Shown here: positions 3,365-16,566 of the stretch, one piece after another
How positions within the stretch are numbered: position 1 is the first letter of the stretch
How the letters are laid out: each line of letters starts with the position of its first letter
DNA from: Caulobacter segnis ATCC 21756
Lineage (GTDB): Bacteria > Pseudomonadota > Alphaproteobacteria > Caulobacterales > Caulobacteraceae
Length of the DNA: 64,000 nucleotides
NCBI RefSeq assembly: GCF_000092285.1
Contig: NC_014100.1
Location: forward strand, 1,054,001 to 1,118,000
Direction: 5' to 3'
Translations under genes and position numbers: made by a program
The notes under the pieces: model-generated
What the model was told of the DNA's origin: nothing
Databases searched by the model: none
The model's input: only the letters and a program-made list of their open reading frames with translations

Positions 3365-3496
3365 GATCCTTCTTCCCCCTCCGGGGGGAGGAGCGCCGAA
3401 GGCGCGGAGGGGGCAAGTCCTGAGCGAAGTCACCCTACTTGCCCCCACCTGACCGCGCTTTGCGCGGTCGTCCGCCCCCAGAGGGGGCGGAAGGAT
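3365..3496. repeat. Two-armed palindromic element, short (gene-less) copy
   Basis: The left arm (3365-3418) begins GATCCTTCTTCCCCC and the right arm (3437-3496) ends GGCGGAAGGAT, so the outer ends are inverted copies of each other. Each arm folds internally (for example GACCGCGC/GCGCGGTC in the right arm). Only 18 bp separate the inner ends GGGGGCAAGT and ACTTGCCCCC. The same arms recur at 7074-7188 and 7548-7599 around a DUF559 gene. The copy lies between two convergent genes, where it could also act as a bidirectional terminator. Confidence 0.8.
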
Positions 3497-5144: not shown

Positions 5145-5448
5145 TGACAAGTCCATGCGCACGCGCCGGCTTTCCGCGCTGGAGCGCCGTCGCCGATCCC
5201 GAAAGGCGGCCTTTTGAACCCCGGTTCGGCGCGGGCGCCAAGCAAATCCTCCCCTAGCGTAAGGCGCGGGCCTCGCACGCCGAAGAGGAGCTCCGTCGAC
5301 CCACCGCCGGCGGCCTTTGGCGCCAAGTACGGGCGTTCAGGCCGCTGTATGCTCGGCGTAGGCGGAGACGAGTCGTTCTAAATCAACGGCTTGTCACTTT
5401 TATAGCCTTCTGGATCATCCGCGTCCGCTGGCGCCGTACCTTTATGTC
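5145..5448. other. Intergenic region upstream of the GTA cluster
   Basis: No gene is supported here. The region separates the minus-strand dehydrogenase from the plus-strand GTA cluster and must hold the GTA promoter. A TTGTCAC at about 5393-5399 followed by an A/T-rich stretch (TTTTATAG) is the only promoter-like sequence I see. No convincing Shine-Dalgarno precedes the ATG at 5449. Confidence 0.35.
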
Positions 5449-5928
5449 ATGGCCCAGAAAAGCGAAGACATCGAAGCCGCCCTTAGCGCCATCGAGGAGT
5501 TGGTGGCCCTGACCTACGCCAAGGCGGCGTCTGAGATCCTGACCGCCAGCGAGGACAAGACCTCCGAAGCGCGGATGGAGATCGCCGCCAAGGCCGCGAA
5601 GGCCGGCCGAGCCATCAAGCTGTTCCGGGGGAGCGCCCGCCGGGTCGGCCGCGCGCTCTCAAGCCTGCAGCGCTCCGCCAAGGCCGACGACGGCGCAGAC
5701 CGGAACAATACGGAGACCGCGATGAATGATGACGTCCCATGGAACGCCCAGCGTATCGCCGAGCTTCATGCCGAGGTGCGCGAACGACTGGCGAAGTTTG
5801 CTGGATCCCGAGAGCTTAAACACCTGGCTGAGCGGGATCGACGAGAACCGTCCGGACTTGGCGAGCCAACTGGAGGAGAGCCTTCGAACGCTCCGCATCC
5901 GGGAGGACCACCAGCTTCCCCCGCCTGA
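5449..5928 (+). CDS. GTA gp1-like, putative small terminase (TerS)
   Basis: A 159-aa frame in the gp1 position, directly upstream of the large terminase. Residues 1-60 are alanine-, lysine- and glutamate-rich and look helical or coiled-coil, as reported for the small terminase of the Rhodobacter GTA, which lacks a DNA-binding domain. Coding character is good to about base 5795 (...AEVRERLAKF); from there codon third positions become poor and the sequence turns into low-complexity Gly/Pro/Ser, while the +1 frame (terminase) becomes strongly coding. The last 130 bases may therefore not be real coding sequence in this frame. TerS identity rests on position and composition only. Confidence 0.5.
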   Translation: MAQKSEDIEAALSAIEELVALTYAKAASEILTASEDKTSEARMEIAAKAAKAGRAIKLFRGSARRVGRALSSLQRSAKADDGADRNNTETAMNDDVPWNAQRIAELHAEVRERLAKFAGSRELKHLAERDRREPSGLGEPTGGEPSNAPHPGGPPASPA

Positions 5929-7063
5929 CCCCTGGGTCACTTGGCTGTTCTTGGGCGGACGCGGCGCCGGCAAGACCTACGCCGGCGCGGCTTGGCTGAT
6001 CGAGCAGGCCACGGCGGGCGCTCGGCTGGCCTTGGTCGGACCCACCTTCCACGACGTGCGCGAGGTGATGATCGAGGGGCCCTCGGGCCTTAAGGCGCTG
6101 TCGCTACCCGACGAGCACCCCCGCTGGGAAGCCTCGCGTCGACGCCTGGTCTGGCCCAACGGCGCGACCGCCTACGCCTTCTCGGCCGAGGATCCGGACT
6201 CCTTACGCGGCCCGCAGTTCCACGCCGCCTGGGCCGACGAGTTCTGCGCCTGGCCCAAGCCCGGCGACACCCTGGCCATGCTGCGGTTCGGCCTGCGCCT
6301 GGGGGCCGATCCGCGCCTGGTGGTGACCACCACGCCCAAGCCCCATCGGGCCCTGAAGGTGTTGATGGCCGAGCCTGGCGTGTCGCTGACCCGCGCGGGC
6401 ACGAGCGCCAACGCCGGCAACCTGGCGCCCGCCTTCCTGCGGACTCTAGAGAGCCTGTATGGCGGCACGCGCCTGGCCGCCCAGGAGTTGGACGGGGTGA
6501 TCGTCGAGACCGACGGCGGCCTGTTCCGCGCCGAGGACCTGGCGCGCTGCCGGGCCGCCCGGCCGGCGCGCCTGGACCGCGTCGTCGTGGCCGTCGACCC
6601 GCCCGCCACCGCCGGCGGCGACGCCTGCGGGATCGTGGTCGTCGGCCGAAGGGACGACCGCGCCTTCGTCCTGGCCGACGAGACGGCGCGGGGGCTGTCT
6701 CCCGCCGGCTGGGCGGCGAGGGCGGTCGCGGCCGCGCGGGCCTGGTCCGCCGACGCCCTCGTGGCCGAGGCCAACCAGGGTGGCGACATGGTGAGGTCCG
6801 TGCTCGCCCAGGCCGATCCGCCGTGCCGGGTGAAACTGGTGCGCGCGAGCGTTGGCAAGCGGGCGCGGGCCGAGCCGGTGGCGGCTTTGTATGAACAGGG
6901 CCGGGTCCTGCACTGCGGGTCCTTCGTGGCGCTGGAGGAGGAGCTGATGGCGCTCGGCTCCGGCGACCTGGAACACAGCCCCGACCGCGCCGACGCCCTG
7001 GTCTGGGCGGTGAGCGAGTTGATGCTGGGTCCGGCGCAGAGGCCGAGGCTGAGGGCGCTATAA
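5726..7063 (+). CDS. GTA large terminase (gp2), ATPase and nuclease
   Basis: Packages DNA into GTA heads. It has a Walker A motif GGRGAGKT, a Walker B/catalytic acid in AAWADEFCAW, a coupling motif with TTTPKPH, and a C-terminal RNase H-like nuclease beginning VVAVDPPATAGGDACG. The frame opens at ATG 5726, but the first 24 codons look unlike protein. TTG at 5798 (MLDPESLNTWL...) is where good coding begins and would give 421 aa. The 5' part overlaps the preceding frame by up to 200 bp. Downstream the GTA order is broken by a minus-strand DUF559 gene before the portal. Confidence 0.93.
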   Translation: MMTSHGTPSVSPSFMPRCANDWRSLLDPESLNTWLSGIDENRPDLASQLEESLRTLRIREDHQLPPPDPWVTWLFLGGRGAGKTYAGAAWLIEQATAGARLALVGPTFHDVREVMIEGPSGLKALSLPDEHPRWEASRRRLVWPNGATAYAFSAEDPDSLRGPQFHAAWADEFCAWPKPGDTLAMLRFGLRLGADPRLVVTTTPKPHRALKVLMAEPGVSLTRAGTSANAGNLAPAFLRTLESLYGGTRLAAQELDGVIVETDGGLFRAEDLARCRAARPARLDRVVVAVDPPATAGGDACGIVVVGRRDDRAFVLADETARGLSPAGWAARAVAAARAWSADALVAEANQGGDMVRSVLAQADPPCRVKLVRASVGKRARAEPVAALYEQGRVLHCGSFVALEEELMALGSGDLEHSPDRADALVWAVSELMLGPAQRPRLRAL

Positions 7064-7073
7064 CCGCCACGAT

Positions 7074-7188
7074 GCCCCCACCTGACCGCGCTATCGCGCG
7101 GTCGTCCGCCCCCGGAGGTGGCGGAAGGCGCGCGATCCTTCTTCCCCCTTCGGGGGAGGAGGATGCGCAGCATCCGGAGGGGGCATGT
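7074..7188. repeat. Palindromic arms on the 3' side of the DUF559 gene
   Basis: Two arm units in tandem. 7074 to about 7127 is nearly the same as the right arm of the element at 3437-3496. 7134-7188 (GATCCTTCTTCCCCC to GGGGGCATGT) matches the left arm at 3365-3418. The DUF559 gene reads into this block on the minus strand, so its last roughly 35 codons (a Pro/Arg-rich tail) are repeat-encoded. Confidence 0.8.
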
Positions 7189-7534
7189 GAGTGATGTATT
7201 CTCGGATTGTCGAGAGCGTGTCGTCCACGGACGCCATGACCTCGTGCGCAGGAATCCGCAGTGTGCGGACGCCCTGCGCGAGGAGCCACCGATCTCTGGC
7301 CAGGTCTCGCCCTGGCCTCGACCCGACGCAGTGCGCGTAGCTATCCACCTCGACCGCCAAGCGCAGCGCCGCGCAGTAGAAATCGAGCACATAGGGCCCG
7401 ATCGGATGCTGGCGGCGGAACTTGTGGCCGTCCAGGCCGCCGCGCCTGAGCGCGTGCCACAGGTTCATTTCCGGCTTCGACATTTCCTTCCTGAGGCGGC
7501 GCGCATTGGCCACCGTCGCCTTGGGCGCTGACAT
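7091..7534 (-). CDS. DUF559 (restriction-endonuclease-like) protein bracketed by palindromic arms
   Basis: A 147-aa protein of the DUF559 family, related in fold to very-short-patch-repair and PD-(D/E)XK nucleases. Visible motifs are RRQHPIGPYVLDFYC and LAVEVDSYAH, giving an acidic D...ExD-like core, then RDRWLLAQGVRTLRI. The N-terminal region ARRLRKEMSKPEMNLW is typical of the family. ATG 7534 is chosen; an upstream extension would be repeat DNA. The gene lies antisense between GTA terminase and portal, with inverted arms at 7134-7188 and 7548-7599. It may be the nuclease of a small mobile palindromic element, or passenger DNA in the GTA locus. Confidence 0.82.
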   Translation of the reverse strand: MSAPKATVANARRLRKEMSKPEMNLWHALRRGGLDGHKFRRQHPIGPYVLDFYCAALRLAVEVDSYAHCVGSRPGRDLARDRWLLAQGVRTLRIPAHEVMASVDDTLSTIREYITHMPPPDAAHPPPPKGEEGSRAFRHLRGRTTAR

Positions 7535-7599
7535 CGCGAACTCCCTGACTTGCCCCCTCCGGGCCTGCGGCCCTCCTCCCCCGGAGGGGGAAGAAGGAT
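7134..7599. mobile_element. Candidate DUF559-carrying palindromic mobile element
   Basis: The unit runs from GATCCTTCTTCCCCC at 7134 to GGGGGAAGAAGGAT at 7599. The ends are inverted copies of each other and enclose one gene (DUF559, minus strand) and little else. The element at 3365-3496 has the same ends but only 18 bp between arms, and that spacer resembles the sequence just upstream of the DUF559 start. No target-site duplication can be asserted by eye. Mobility is inference; the symmetrical architecture is directly visible. Confidence 0.5.
7548..7599. repeat. Palindromic arm on the 5' side of the DUF559 gene
   Basis: ACTTGCCCCCTCC to GGGGGAAGAAGGAT, an inverted counterpart of 7134-7188, with an internal hairpin (GGGCCTGCGGCCC). 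It occupies the leader of the portal gene, 58 bp upstream of the portal ATG. Confidence 0.8.
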
Positions 7600-7657: not shown

Positions 7658-8797
7658 ATGCTCTTCCCCAAACCGCGCCCGCCCGAGCGCAAGGACTCCC
7701 GCGCCGCGCGGCTGATCGCGCTGACCACCGGTGGGCGGCCGCAGTGGACGCCGCGGGACTATGGCGCGCTGGCCGCCGAGGGGTTCGCCAAGAACCCCGT
7801 CGCCTATCGCTGCGTCCGTATGATCGCCGAGGCTGCCGCCGCGACGCCGCTGGCGGTGTTCGTCGAGGGCCGTCGCGCCGACGATCATCCGCTCAAGCGC
7901 CTGCTCGATCGCCCCAATCCCGAGCAGGGCGGGCCGGATCTGATGGAGGCGTTCTTCGGGAACCTGCAGGTCGCCGGCAACGGCTATCTGGAAGCGGCGG
8001 GCGACGCCCAGCCCGCCGAGCTCTACGCCCTGCGCCCCGACCGGATGACCGTAGTCCCCGGACCGCGCGGCTGGCCGCTGGCCTATGACTATCAAGCCGC
8101 CGGGCGCACGGTCCGCATCGGCCGCGACGGCGACGGCTGGCTGCCGGTGCTGCACCTGAAGCTCTTCAACCCGACCAGCGACCACTACGGCTTTTCGCCG
8201 CTCGAAGCGGCGGCTTTCGCGATCGACGTGCACAACGCCTCCAGCGCCTGGAACAAGGCGCTGCTGGACAACTCGGCCAGGCCCTCCGGCGCGCTGGTCT
8301 ATTCGTCGAAGGACGCCGGCGATCGCCTGACCGACGAGCAGTTCGACCGGCTGAAGACCGAGCTGGCCAACGCCCATTCCGGCCAGGCCAACGCCGGCCG
8401 GCCGCTGTTGCTGGAGGGCGGTCTCGACTGGCGGGCCATGTCGCTGACGCCGGCCGAGATGGACTTCACCGAGGGCAAGCACGCCGCCGCCCGCGAGATC
8501 GCCCTGGCGTTCGGGGTCCCGCCGCAACTGCTCGGCATCCCCGGCGACAACACCTACGCCAACTACCGCGAGGCCAACGCCGCCTTCTGGCGCGGGACGG
8601 TGGTTCCGCTGGCCGAGCGGGCGGCGCGGGCCCTGACCGCCTGGCTGGCCGTGAAGTTCCCCGGCGCGCGGATCGCCCCCGACCTCGACGCCGTCCCGGC
8701 CCTGTCGGCCGAGCGCGACGCCCTGTGGAGCCGGCTGGAGACCGCGTCCTTCCTCACCGACGCCGAGCGTCGGCGGCTGGCGGGGCTGGAGCATTGA
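7658..8797 (+). CDS. GTA portal protein (gp3), HK97 family
   Basis: A 379-aa phage portal protein forming the dodecameric DNA gate of the capsid. It has the usual family features: a basic N-terminus, KNPVAYRCVRMIAEAAAATPL, NPTSDHYGFSPLEAA, an ALLDNSARPSGAL segment and AFGVPPQLLGIPGDNTYANYREA near the C-terminal third. ATG 7658 follows GGAG by 9 bp; the open frame extends upstream only through palindromic repeat. The stop codon overlaps the TTG start of the next small gene. Confidence 0.93.
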   Translation: MLFPKPRPPERKDSRAARLIALTTGGRPQWTPRDYGALAAEGFAKNPVAYRCVRMIAEAAAATPLAVFVEGRRADDHPLKRLLDRPNPEQGGPDLMEAFFGNLQVAGNGYLEAAGDAQPAELYALRPDRMTVVPGPRGWPLAYDYQAAGRTVRIGRDGDGWLPVLHLKLFNPTSDHYGFSPLEAAAFAIDVHNASSAWNKALLDNSARPSGALVYSSKDAGDRLTDEQFDRLKTELANAHSGQANAGRPLLLEGGLDWRAMSLTPAEMDFTEGKHAAAREIALAFGVPPQLLGIPGDNTYANYREANAAFWRGTVVPLAERAARALTAWLAVKFPGARIAPDLDAVPALSAERDALWSRLETASFLTDAERRRLAGLEH

Positions 8798-13610: not shown

Positions 13611-13704
13611 AGACGCTCGAAGCGCCTGGGCGATGAGGACGACCGGAGACAGCGGCGCGAGGCGCTGTATAGTCGTGGCGTCTTTTCTAGCGACGAGGCG
13701 GGCT

Positions 13705-14106
13705 ATGGCTTTGACGCCGATGTTTTTGGCCATGGCCGTGCAGGCGGCGCCCGTAACCATCGCGATCGACGACGCCCGCTTCGCGCCCATAGATCCGCGC
13801 AACCCGAATGGGCCTCAGATCGCCGTTCTGCGCGGTGATCCGGCCGCCGGCCCGTCCGATATGCTGATGCGCTTTTCCCGCGGACAAGGCGTGCCCCACG
13901 TCCACTCGTCGGACTATCGGCTCGTCGTGGTCGAGGGCGTGATGACCCACGCCAAGGCCGGCGAGGAGGCCGGCGCCAAGCCGCTGGGCCCCGGCAGTTA
14001 CTGGTTCCAGCCTGGCGAACAGCCGCATGTCGACGGTTGCCTGAGCGAGCGCTGCACCATGTTCATCAGCTGGTCAGGCAAGCGCGACGCCCGTCGGGCC
14101 CCCTAG
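13705..14106 (+). CDS. Exported cupin-like protein
   Basis: A 133-aa protein with an N-terminal signal-like stretch (MALTPMFLAMAVQAAPV) and a single cupin barrel resembling DUF4437. It has the metal-ligand motif GQGVPHVHSSDYR and the second motif GPGSYWFQPGEQPHVDGC. ATG 13705 has GAGG 6-9 bp upstream; an ATG at 13633 is also in frame but adds an unlikely N-terminus. Cupins at this size often bind metal or act as anti-sigma or detoxification proteins. It sits inside the GTA cluster, between gp11 and gp12, with no known GTA role. Confidence 0.75.
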   Translation: MALTPMFLAMAVQAAPVTIAIDDARFAPIDPRNPNGPQIAVLRGDPAAGPSDMLMRFSRGQGVPHVHSSDYRLVVVEGVMTHAKAGEEAGAKPLGPGSYWFQPGEQPHVDGCLSERCTMFISWSGKRDARRAP

Positions 14107-14147
14107 CGCTTCGGCGGACAAGCGTGGGCGCGCGGGCTCCTCGATCC

Positions 14148-14612
14148 CTACAGCGCCACGGCGGTCGTGTTGGGCGGGGGCGAGCCGTACCTGTTGTCGT
14201 TGGGCTGGCCCAGGCTGCAGCCGACCCACAGGGTGAAGGCCAGCCAGATCGCGAAGGCGATGAAGCACGAGACGAAGAAGCCGCCCAGCGCGGTCAGGGC
14301 CGCGATCTCGGGCTCGCCGCTGGTCAGGGCCGCGATGGCCGGCAGGACGCCGACCGACAAGGCCGAGCCCATGATCAGGACCGGACCCAACACCCACGGC
14401 AGCACCTGCCACCAGCCGGTCTGACCCATGTCGTGCAGGCGCTTGGAATGGATGCAGACGCTGGAATAGATCGTGGCCAAGGCGATGATGTTGCCGATCA
14501 CGGGCAGCCAGCCCACGGCCATGTTGACGCCCAGCAGGACGAGCCAGCCGATCCAGAACGCTTGCCGGCCGATGCGGCCTTCCGGCGACAGGAACAGGGT
14601 CTTCCAATCCAT
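14148..14612 (-). CDS. DUF805 inner-membrane protein
   Basis: A 154-aa integral membrane protein opening with the DUF805 signature MDWKTLFLSPEGRIGRQAFW, followed by four hydrophobic segments and the conserved RLHDMGQTGWW loop. ATG 14612 is preferred over 14636 because GGAGA precedes it by 6 bp on the minus strand. Function of the family is unknown. It is antisense to the GTA genes, between gp11 and gp12, and shares its upstream region with gp12. Confidence 0.85.
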   Translation of the reverse strand: MDWKTLFLSPEGRIGRQAFWIGWLVLLGVNMAVGWLPVIGNIIALATIYSSVCIHSKRLHDMGQTGWWQVLPWVLGPVLIMGSALSVGVLPAIAALTSGEPEIAALTALGGFFVSCFIAFAIWLAFTLWVGCSLGQPNDNRYGSPPPNTTAVAL

Positions 14613-16024: not shown

Positions 16025-16566
16025 GGGCGCATAGATGCTCCCCCGCGATGCGGGGGAGCTGTCGCGGAGCGACTGAGGGGGCAAGCGCGGCGGATGCCCA
16101 GCTCGCCCCCTCCGGCCCTCTGGGCCACCTCCCCCGCAGCGCGGGGGAGGATCTCGTCGTCACCCAAGCCCGCCTCTGGCTCGGAACCCCCTACCGTCAC
16201 CAGGCCTCGACCCTCGGCGCGGGCTGCGACTGCCTGGGGCTGGTGCGTGGCGTCTGGCGGGCGATTCACGGCGTCGAGCCGGAAGCTCCGCCGCCCTACC
16301 GCCCCGACTGGGCCGAGGTCGGCGAGCGGGAGCTCCTGCTCGAGGCGTTCGCCCGCTGGCTGGCGCCGGTCCCGCTGTCCGGCGCCCGTCCCGGCGACGT
16401 CCTGGTCTTCCGCATGGCGCCCGGGGCGGTGGCCAAGCACTGCGCGATCCAGTCCGGACCCGACCGGATGATCCACGCCTACTGGGGCCGCGCCTGCGTC
16501 GAGAGCGCCCTGGGGCGCTGGTGGCGCGAGCGTCTGGTCGCGGTGTTCCGTTTTCCCTCCGTCTGA
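16021..16566 (+). CDS. GTA tail peptidase (gp14, NlpC/P60) with repeat-derived N-terminus
   Basis: A 181-aa cell-wall peptidase for penetrating the recipient's murein. The domain begins near VTQARLWLGTPYRHQAS and holds the catalytic cysteine in GCDCLGLVRG, a histidine in AVAKHCAIQ and the usual GDVLVF strand. In-frame start codons upstream of the domain are GTG 16021 (overlapping the gp13 stop) and ATG 16048; both lie before or inside the palindromic element at 16034-16153. The first 34-43 residues are therefore translated repeat, unlike any NlpC protein I know. An unconventional start at the domain boundary is the alternative. Confidence 0.85.
   Translation: MRAHRCSPAMRGSCRGATEGASAADAQLAPSGPLGHLPRSAGEDLVVTQARLWLGTPYRHQASTLGAGCDCLGLVRGVWRAIHGVEPEAPPPYRPDWAEVGERELLLEAFARWLAPVPLSGARPGDVLVFRMAPGAVAKHCAIQSGPDRMIHAYWGRACVESALGRWWRERLVAVFRFPSV
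16034..16153. repeat. Type B palindromic element inside the gp14 reading frame
   Basis: GATGCTCCCCCGCGATGCGGGGGAGC at the left and CACCTCCCCCGCAGCGCGGGGGAGGATC at the right, with a centre of about 25 bp; in opposite orientation to the copy at 9830-9950. It stands at the gp13/gp14 junction and is open in the gp14 frame throughout. Confidence 0.8.

Follow-up and report, generated by a model that had tools for sequence, protein, structure and literature searches.

A DUF559 nuclease gene between inverted palindromic arms in Caulobacter segnis: a probable minimal mobile element with gene-less relatives

Among the small palindromes of bacterial chromosomes are the repetitive extragenic palindromes (REPs) and the hairpin-forming pairs of them (REPINs), which are served by REP-associated tyrosine transposases (RAYTs, or TnpA-REP); in these systems the type of enzyme matches the type of palindrome. 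Vsr, an enzyme of a different kind, is a mismatch endonuclease that nicks T:G mismatches and whose gene is linked to a cytosine methyltransferase. In Caulobacter itself, Chen and Shapiro reportedly described in 2003 long intergenic inverted repeats, the Caulobacter intergenic repeats (CIR), which are said to be tied to CcrM sites and not to a nuclease, and some of the palindromes treated below may be the same sequences. Here we describe a stretch of 64,000 nucleotides from Caulobacter segnis ATCC 21756 (the window; NC_014100.1, positions 1,054,001 to 1,118,000, or G000:C1:1054001-1118000 in our numbering of genomes, contigs and positions), drawn from a single-contig genome of 4.66 Mb, in which a gene for a DUF559 nuclease is enclosed by inverted palindromic arms. 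We propose, with a probability of roughly 0.6, that arm, nuclease gene and arm constitute a minimal mobile element with arms of REP type and with gene-less, REPIN-like, non-autonomous relatives, and that the nuclease would drive its spread. Our comparisons yielded the association of gene and arms, the ends of the element, a correspondence between the clade of the nuclease and the family of its palindromes, forms without the gene at the same site, the swapping of cassettes and the presence of several copies in one genome. This kind of minimal mobile element, built on a homing-type nuclease and not on a transposase, is apparently undescribed so far.

The arms and their association with DUF559 genes

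The nuclease gene occupies positions 7091..7534 on the minus strand (ATG at 7534, stop codon at 7091, core 7181-7534) and was assigned by its match to PF04480 (E 1.6e-27), a Vsr-like or EDxHD-type nuclease family. Sequence comparison places both arms in palindrome family A: the right arm (7548..7599) carries the inner tag ACTTGCCCCC toward the gene, two hairpins and the outer end GAAGAAGGAT, and the left arm (7135..7188) is an inverted copy of it with the tag GGGGGCATGT toward the gene, such that positions 7135-7162 and 7572-7599 are 96% complementary across 28 nt. An earlier interpretation made from the letters of the window (the sequence-only reading) had proposed inverted arms around one DUF559 gene, and this description holds. 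The gene is tightly packed, with its start codon 13 nt from the right arm, a likely ribosome-binding site (AGGGAG, 7541..7546, minus strand, from reading the sequence) in the gap between them, and a reading frame that passes through the left arm to a stop codon beyond it. A second palindrome, of family D (7074..7128), stands back to back with the left arm, and this pair (7074-7188) is itself the left flank of the gene; by eye, family D is the family of the DUF559 arms in genomes G375, G377 and G379.

Elements of this kind are about 600 bp long with one gene each. In 31 of 34 inverted pairs, the half of the arm farther from the gene contains the strong hairpin, and therefore the G-rich tag is turned toward the gene. 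In 36 of 49 loci the reading frame runs into the right arm before it reaches its stop codon. The DUF559 gene is under purifying selection, with dN/dS values of 0.07-0.12 for 10 pairs from 5 genomes, a set that leaves out comparisons with G373. A known structured RNA was set aside, since a comparison of the window with Rfam at the gathering threshold yielded a tRNA and nothing else.

To each gene we assigned a flank score, taken from the highest-scoring local alignment of its two 450-bp flanks in both orientations, and called flanks matched at a score of at least 50. The main set comprised 60 PF04480 loci from 57 Caulobacteraceae genomes, from among the matches listed, in stretches of up to 20 kb each. 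Matched palindromic flanks were present at 49 of the 60 DUF559 loci compared with 54 of 4793 control positions taken from these stretches, and in a set of named genomes (40 of 80 loci used) at 28 of 40 loci compared with 0 of 633 control positions, so that the arm association anticipated by the sequence-only reading is borne out. The window gene (locus L091) scored 64 against a control maximum of 36 within the same 20 kb, and all three PF04480 genes of G000 have matched flanks (scores 148, 64 and 57).

The 54 control positions represent 17 events, including two further DUF559 genes and one GIY-YIG gene. Twelve of the 14 remaining events were viewed (not L047 or L075_15050; L080 was missed by the chosen position), and by eye about 8 of these 12 lie in coding sequence, mostly repeated (L035, L041, L046, L048, L056, L065, L068 and L075_16050), while three events in L072 include palindromic or repeated DNA. 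Arms arising by chance in GC-rich DNA were set aside in view of the reversed-pattern and purine-stem controls given below, which were near zero.

The association extends beyond the main set. Among readable loci, from which clipped loci were excluded (4 top DUF559, 1 Pseudomonadota-wide, 3 ParE and 11 Y1_Tnp), matched flanks were found at 24 of 26 top Caulobacteraceae DUF559 loci and 14 of 29 DUF559 loci taken across Pseudomonadota, including 7 of 14 from classes other than that of the window. Four of 39 matching plasmids were scored: flanks are matched for the DUF559 genes on plasmids of Picosynechococcus (146) and Deinococcus psychrotolerans (114), borderline on an Azospirillum plasmid (51) and unmatched on the Synechocystis B12 plasmid (25). 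Toxin genes of the ParE type had matched flanks at 0 of 27 loci.

Since the arms form two-hairpin dimers like those of REPs, they could be ordinary REPs spread by a RAYT, that is, a Y1 HUH transposase, with the link to DUF559 secondary. Y1_Tnp matches do occur in 20 of 118 Caulobacteraceae genomes (a count in which RAYTs and other IS200-type transposases are undistinguished), and 7 of 19 readable Y1_Tnp loci had matched flanks. Yet G000 has no Y1_Tnp (PF01797) match at E<=0.001 and nonetheless holds 28 matches to family A, and DUF559 is present in at least 90 of 119 genomes. We consider this explanation, already disfavoured, to be highly improbable.

Mobility, nuclease clades and exchange of cassettes

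In genome G116, four cassettes at four places on three contigs have sequence in common from arm to arm. On the right side, homology goes no further than the outer end of the arm in 6 of 6 pairs (one 21-nt match apart); on the left, it starts at the outer end of the left arm in 5 of 6 pairs, with short matches of 33 and 61 nt further off in two pairs. At least three of the four sites are unrelated. The encoded proteins share 90-96% identity among themselves, and none exceeds 84% identity to any other protein in the set; three of the copies (L411-L413) each contain an N. By eye, the right flanks of these three share a similar CGTCCGC...GGTCG motif, which occurs further off downstream in the fourth (L415); this motif, along with a left flank shared by two copies (see below), possibly reflects other repeats or preferred targets. 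We regard cassette plus arms as very likely a mobile unit. This much of the nuclease-based palindrome-spreading system envisaged by the sequence-only reading is upheld; its other part, the nuclease as the agent of the spread, we consider probable.

DUF559 clades carry their own palindrome families. By eye, the three DUF559 genes of G000 have arms of three different families, and G116 contains at least four DUF559 clades with four arm families (L411-L413 and L415; L416; L417; L430). Relatives of these clades keep the same arm family, also by eye: L425 and L427 of G086 for the first, L429 of G086 for the second and L003 of G000 for the third. Arms were present in 21 of the 23 loci of this comparison; L421 and L423, both from G047, are without them. 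Across 64 loci with arms, of 77 in all, arm similarity drops with DUF559 distance, with rho -0.75 for pairs from the same genome (52 pairs, the four G116 copies included) and -0.69 for pairs within a genus (496 pairs).

These results also bear on the possibility that the arms insulate the gene, acting as terminators or as hairpins that protect mRNA and being favoured by selection next to a gene that is toxic or antisense, the match between gene and arms then stemming from one reused terminator family. The arms are indeed strong hairpins, the window gene is antisense within a gene cluster, and the hairpin points away from the gene in nearly all inverted pairs. However, the same arms occur gene-less in tens of copies, ParE toxin genes are without them, arm family tracks nuclease clade more than genome, and the homology of the G116 copies ends at the arms. 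Insulation is thus a very unlikely explanation.

The window cassette is situated between genes for a GTA-type (gene transfer agent) large terminase on its left (5726..7063, plus strand, PF03237/PF17289) and a GTA-type portal protein on its right (7658..8797, plus strand, PF04860), to which it is antisense, in a cluster whose GTA-like character is supported by a match to GTA_TIM (PF13547, E 3.5e-140); the sequence-only reading had the position correct. A DUF559 gene lies downstream of the terminase gene in 37 of the 51 Caulobacter genomes whose terminase locus was read, antisense in 37 of 37 and within 251 nt in 35 of 37, and at least three (G392, G413 and G422) of the 14 genomes without it are cut by a contig end. 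Of the readable DUF559 loci in this syntenic set, 23 of 29 have matched arms at a score of 50 and 28 of 29 at a score of 38 (one of the 28, in G369, sits off the GTA site), G395 being the only one below.

At this site the arm family varies between species. Among relatives with 87-90% terminase identity to G000, DUF559 identity ranges from 45% to 92%, and the arms track DUF559 (35 loci; arm windows take in the short leader between gene and arm). A partial Mantel test on these loci gave p 0.0015 for DUF559 given terminase and 0.14 for terminase given DUF559. The terminase tree is rejected by the DUF559 data in the approximately unbiased (AU) test (p 8.8e-7), as is the reverse (p 7.6e-5). To accommodate the six arm families, the DUF559 tree needs 7 changes and the terminase tree 12, compared with an average of 21 under shuffling (34 labelled loci, with G379 labelled D by sequence reading and the armless G395 unlabelled), both trees lying below every shuffle. 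As the arms track DUF559 and the trees conflict, gene and arms appear to be exchanged as one cassette at a fixed site. The window copy is an old resident with a swapped cassette, given that gene and site are common to 37 of the 51 Caulobacter genomes read there, and not a fresh insertion; the sequence-only reading of a candidate autonomous mobile element is sustained overall, with this correction for the window copy.

Alternatively, the swapping could represent plain interspecies homologous recombination across the conserved terminase and portal genes, in which the nuclease is inactive. The flanking genes are conserved, as this requires, and short recombination tracts would give the same tree conflict. 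Such recombination leaves unexplained the association at other sites and in other orders, the G116 copies and the re-occupation of the palindrome site at 3365-3496 described below, and we consider it a very improbable account.

The same terminase-portal gap is filled by a gene-less palindrome pair in G364 (210 nt), G111 (185 nt) and G407 (172 nt), by eye in the same orientation as the gene-bearing pairs, while the gap of G409 (131 nt) has no pair of DUF559 type and that of G408 measures 539 nt. A GIY-YIG gene between palindromes of another family occupies the gap in G399 and G410 (PF01541 in both) and in G406 (by reading). The gap seems to be a hot spot for small inserts. In G401 (L283) it holds a gene-less pair of DUF559 type whose loop contains a second pair of GIY-YIG type, a nested insertion, and in G369 (L266) it holds genes that read as VapBC adjoining GGGGACATGTTC-type palindromes.

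Gene-less pairs also occur elsewhere in the cluster. At 3365..3496 the window has a REPIN-like pair made of a family A left arm, an 18-nt loop and a family D right arm. The sequence-only reading had taken both arms for those of the DUF559 gene, which is right for the left arm (96% like the DUF559 arm) and wrong for the right, whose best match is the 7074-7128 palindrome (94%; the right arm of the gene reaches only 76% there), making the pair a heterodimer. In G106, whose terminase is the closest found to that of G000 (95%), this site holds a pair of another family, and G106 alone of the two genomes has a 147-bp gene-less pair belonging to the palindrome families of the window. The syntenic comparison thus provided the gene-less pairs, and G116 the exact ends, that the sequence-only reading had looked for; of the target duplication, none was seen.

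Other differences between these two genomes include a 162-bp CGTC-like pair inside the GTA cluster, in G106 only (window 16557-16562 vs L432, G106:C18:761619-761781), and a region in which G106 has about 0.9 kb more, comprising an open frame and, on one side, a palindrome pair (window 5242-5310 vs L432, G106:C18:749890-750835). Conversely, some 0.5 kb of the window (13612-14149), located where a GTA-cluster gene ends and containing an open frame, is absent from G106.

Palindrome abundance and a second nuclease

Family A has 28 matches in G000 with at most 2 mismatches, compared with 0 for the reversed-pattern control, and occurs in 28 of 75 Caulobacter genomes. Several of these are without a family A cassette at the GTA site, and therefore its persistence needs no resident nuclease. 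Pyrimidine-stem hairpins number 10 in 746 kb from ten DUF559-free genomes and 61 in 953 kb near DUF559 genes, making the palindromes about five times denser in DUF559-bearing genomes; purine-stem control hairpins numbered 0 and 1, respectively. The strict rule by which palindromes would always require a resident nuclease of the matching type was rejected, as it fails in G111 and G001 and for family A in G372, G379 and G384.

DUF559 is not the only small nuclease found in this setting. The small GIY-YIG gene found at the GTA site (L267:1564-1875, L268:1538-1888; loci L284-L313) has relatives in 68 of 118 Caulobacteraceae genomes, and 15 of 27 readable best loci have matched flanks, mostly CGTC-like palindromes. 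By eye, GTCAT stands beside the stem in 8 of these 15 (e.g., CCGTCATCCTCGGGCTTGTCCCGAGGACCCAT), and most others look like variants of it. CGTC REPs are reported to be without a dedicated transposase, according to the part of that study available to us (PMC3733652), and the small GIY-YIG nuclease is a candidate partner for them.

A further possibility is that both nuclease genes are hitch-hikers, some other enzyme moving the palindrome pairs and the DUF559 and GIY-YIG genes being passengers that settle in the loops, either as safe intergenic sites or as nuclease targets. In line with this, insertion sequence (IS) elements are reported to insert in REPs, as far as the accessible portion of that report goes (PMC1525189), some genomes that have no DUF559 retain palindromes, family A remains abundant where the GTA site has no family A nuclease, and VapBC-like genes share the same gap in G369. 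Against it stand the match of nuclease clade and palindrome family inside single genomes, the lack of flanks around ParE genes, the control events unrelated to DUF559 or GIY-YIG, of which most of those viewed lie in coding sequence, and the higher palindrome density in DUF559-bearing genomes. We regard hitch-hiking as unlikely on balance.

Several observations weigh against a nuclease-driven element. Flanks were unmatched at score 50 in 11 of 60 Caulobacteraceae DUF559 loci, 12 of 40 named-genome loci and 15 of 29 phylum-wide loci. Family A is abundant where the GTA cassette is not of family A (39 matches in G372, 40 in G379 and 41 in G384), and hairpins occur in DUF559-free genomes (3 in G111, 6 in G001 and 1 in G080; none in seven of the ten); moreover, the DUF559-bearing stretches behind the density figures are a non-random selection, and exclude DNA within 1.5 kb of DUF559 genes. 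The correlation between arms and DUF559 is weak between genera (rho -0.14, 1468 pairs, p 0.003). Arm families are non-random on the terminase tree too, as common descent would give, and ordinary homologous recombination could account for the exchanges at the GTA site. As for the G116 copies, one is frameshifted, and the left flanks of L412 and L415 are alike (76-84% over about 550 nt), so that both may have arisen in a single larger duplication or have a target repeat in common. Inspection by eye of the four G116 copies and the two G106-only pairs revealed no target duplication. Finally, some DUF559 members may have cellular roles, given what the available part of one study describes for the C. 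crescentus protein VsrA (PMC12907096).

Proposed mechanism and comparison with known systems

PF04480/DUF559 is still listed in Pfam as a domain of unknown function. The fold of the protein resembles that of the homing endonuclease I-Bth0305I (PDB 3r3p) and of Vsr, and E22, D51, H68 and D77 are invariant, in this order, across 38 sequences; we take these residues to be the EDxHD motif. A probable orthologue in C. crescentus is CCNA_02876. A phage gene was set aside in view of the lack of any match in 50,697 phage records and of a PHROG (17 matches on viral contigs of 4-9 kb are perhaps GTA fragments), and a known or candidate defence gene in view of the lack of a PADLOC match. VsrA, the DUF559 protein mentioned above, is responsible for the SOS response seen in a methyltransferase mutant and is suggested to act as an enzyme of repair, in the sections of that paper open to us (PMC12907096).

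Each arm consists of an outer hairpin rich in pyrimidines, in many cases another hairpin, and a G-rich tag on the side of the gene. In the mechanism we propose, gene-less pairs of the same arms would be non-autonomous relatives of the gene-bearing element. The nuclease would recognise its cognate palindrome, as a hairpin, a cruciform or through the tag, and then nick or cut; repair from another copy would bring cassette or arms into the broken site. Such homing-like gene conversion would also explain how one family replaces another at an occupied site, whereas the entry of a pair into a palindrome-free site is left unexplained by it. That homing-like repair, and not transposition, is the main route seems to us an even bet.

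If this is extended to the second nuclease, REP palindromes could be served by at least three unrelated enzymes (RAYTs for GTAG REPs, DUF559 nucleases for CTC-rich palindromes and small GIY-YIG nucleases for CGTC REPs), the latter two spreading them by homing-type cleavage and repair instead of transposition; we hold this generalization tentatively, at somewhat less than even odds. If true, REPINs linked to DUF559 and GIY-YIG would be homing elements of which hardly anything but the target site is left. Many bacteria have short intergenic palindromes, the mover of which is unclear for many families, and a nuclease matched to them family by family is a testable candidate. The proposal also suggests a function for the DUF559 domain and ties homing-type endonucleases to the abundant small repeats of bacterial chromosomes. 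It is directly testable because the elements are so small, with a single gene, and C. crescentus is tractable.

In a literature search of titles and the beginnings of abstracts, with most subscription journals outside its scope, no entry tied DUF559 or GIY-YIG nucleases to palindromes. The available main text of the VsrA paper (PMC12907096), which treats the protein as a candidate repair enzyme, contains neither "palindrom" nor "inverted repeat", and the available text of RepRanger (PMC12306157) has no word starting with "nuclease" or "RAYT".

The system we describe is like that of REPs, REPINs and RAYTs in having short palindromes in inverted pairs, tens of copies, a flanked enzyme gene and gene-less copies, and inverted palindrome dimers in many intergenic positions. 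It differs in that the enzyme is a DUF559 nuclease of PD-(D/E)XK type and not a Y1 HUH transposase, and in that the arms, by eye, are without a GTAG tag at their ends and end in tags of the GG(A/G)TGAGGGG- or GGAGGGGGC-type. The CGTC REPs are mostly alphaproteobacterial, mainly head-to-head dimers, with C. crescentus among the carriers, as stated in the accessible part of their description (Di Nocera 2013, PMC3733652). Unlike these, the DUF559 arms have another tag, by eye without the CGTC tag and CCA tail around an 8-9 bp stem, and the CGTC-like palindromes encountered here flank GIY-YIG genes instead of DUF559 genes. Vsr is compared here by its fold relation only. The protein is like I-Bth0305I in having its catalytic-domain fold with the E, D, H and D residues in order; unlike the gene for that enzyme, the DUF559 gene lies outside any intron or intein and is embedded in a palindrome pair, and the gene-less pairs at the same site fit what homing would need.
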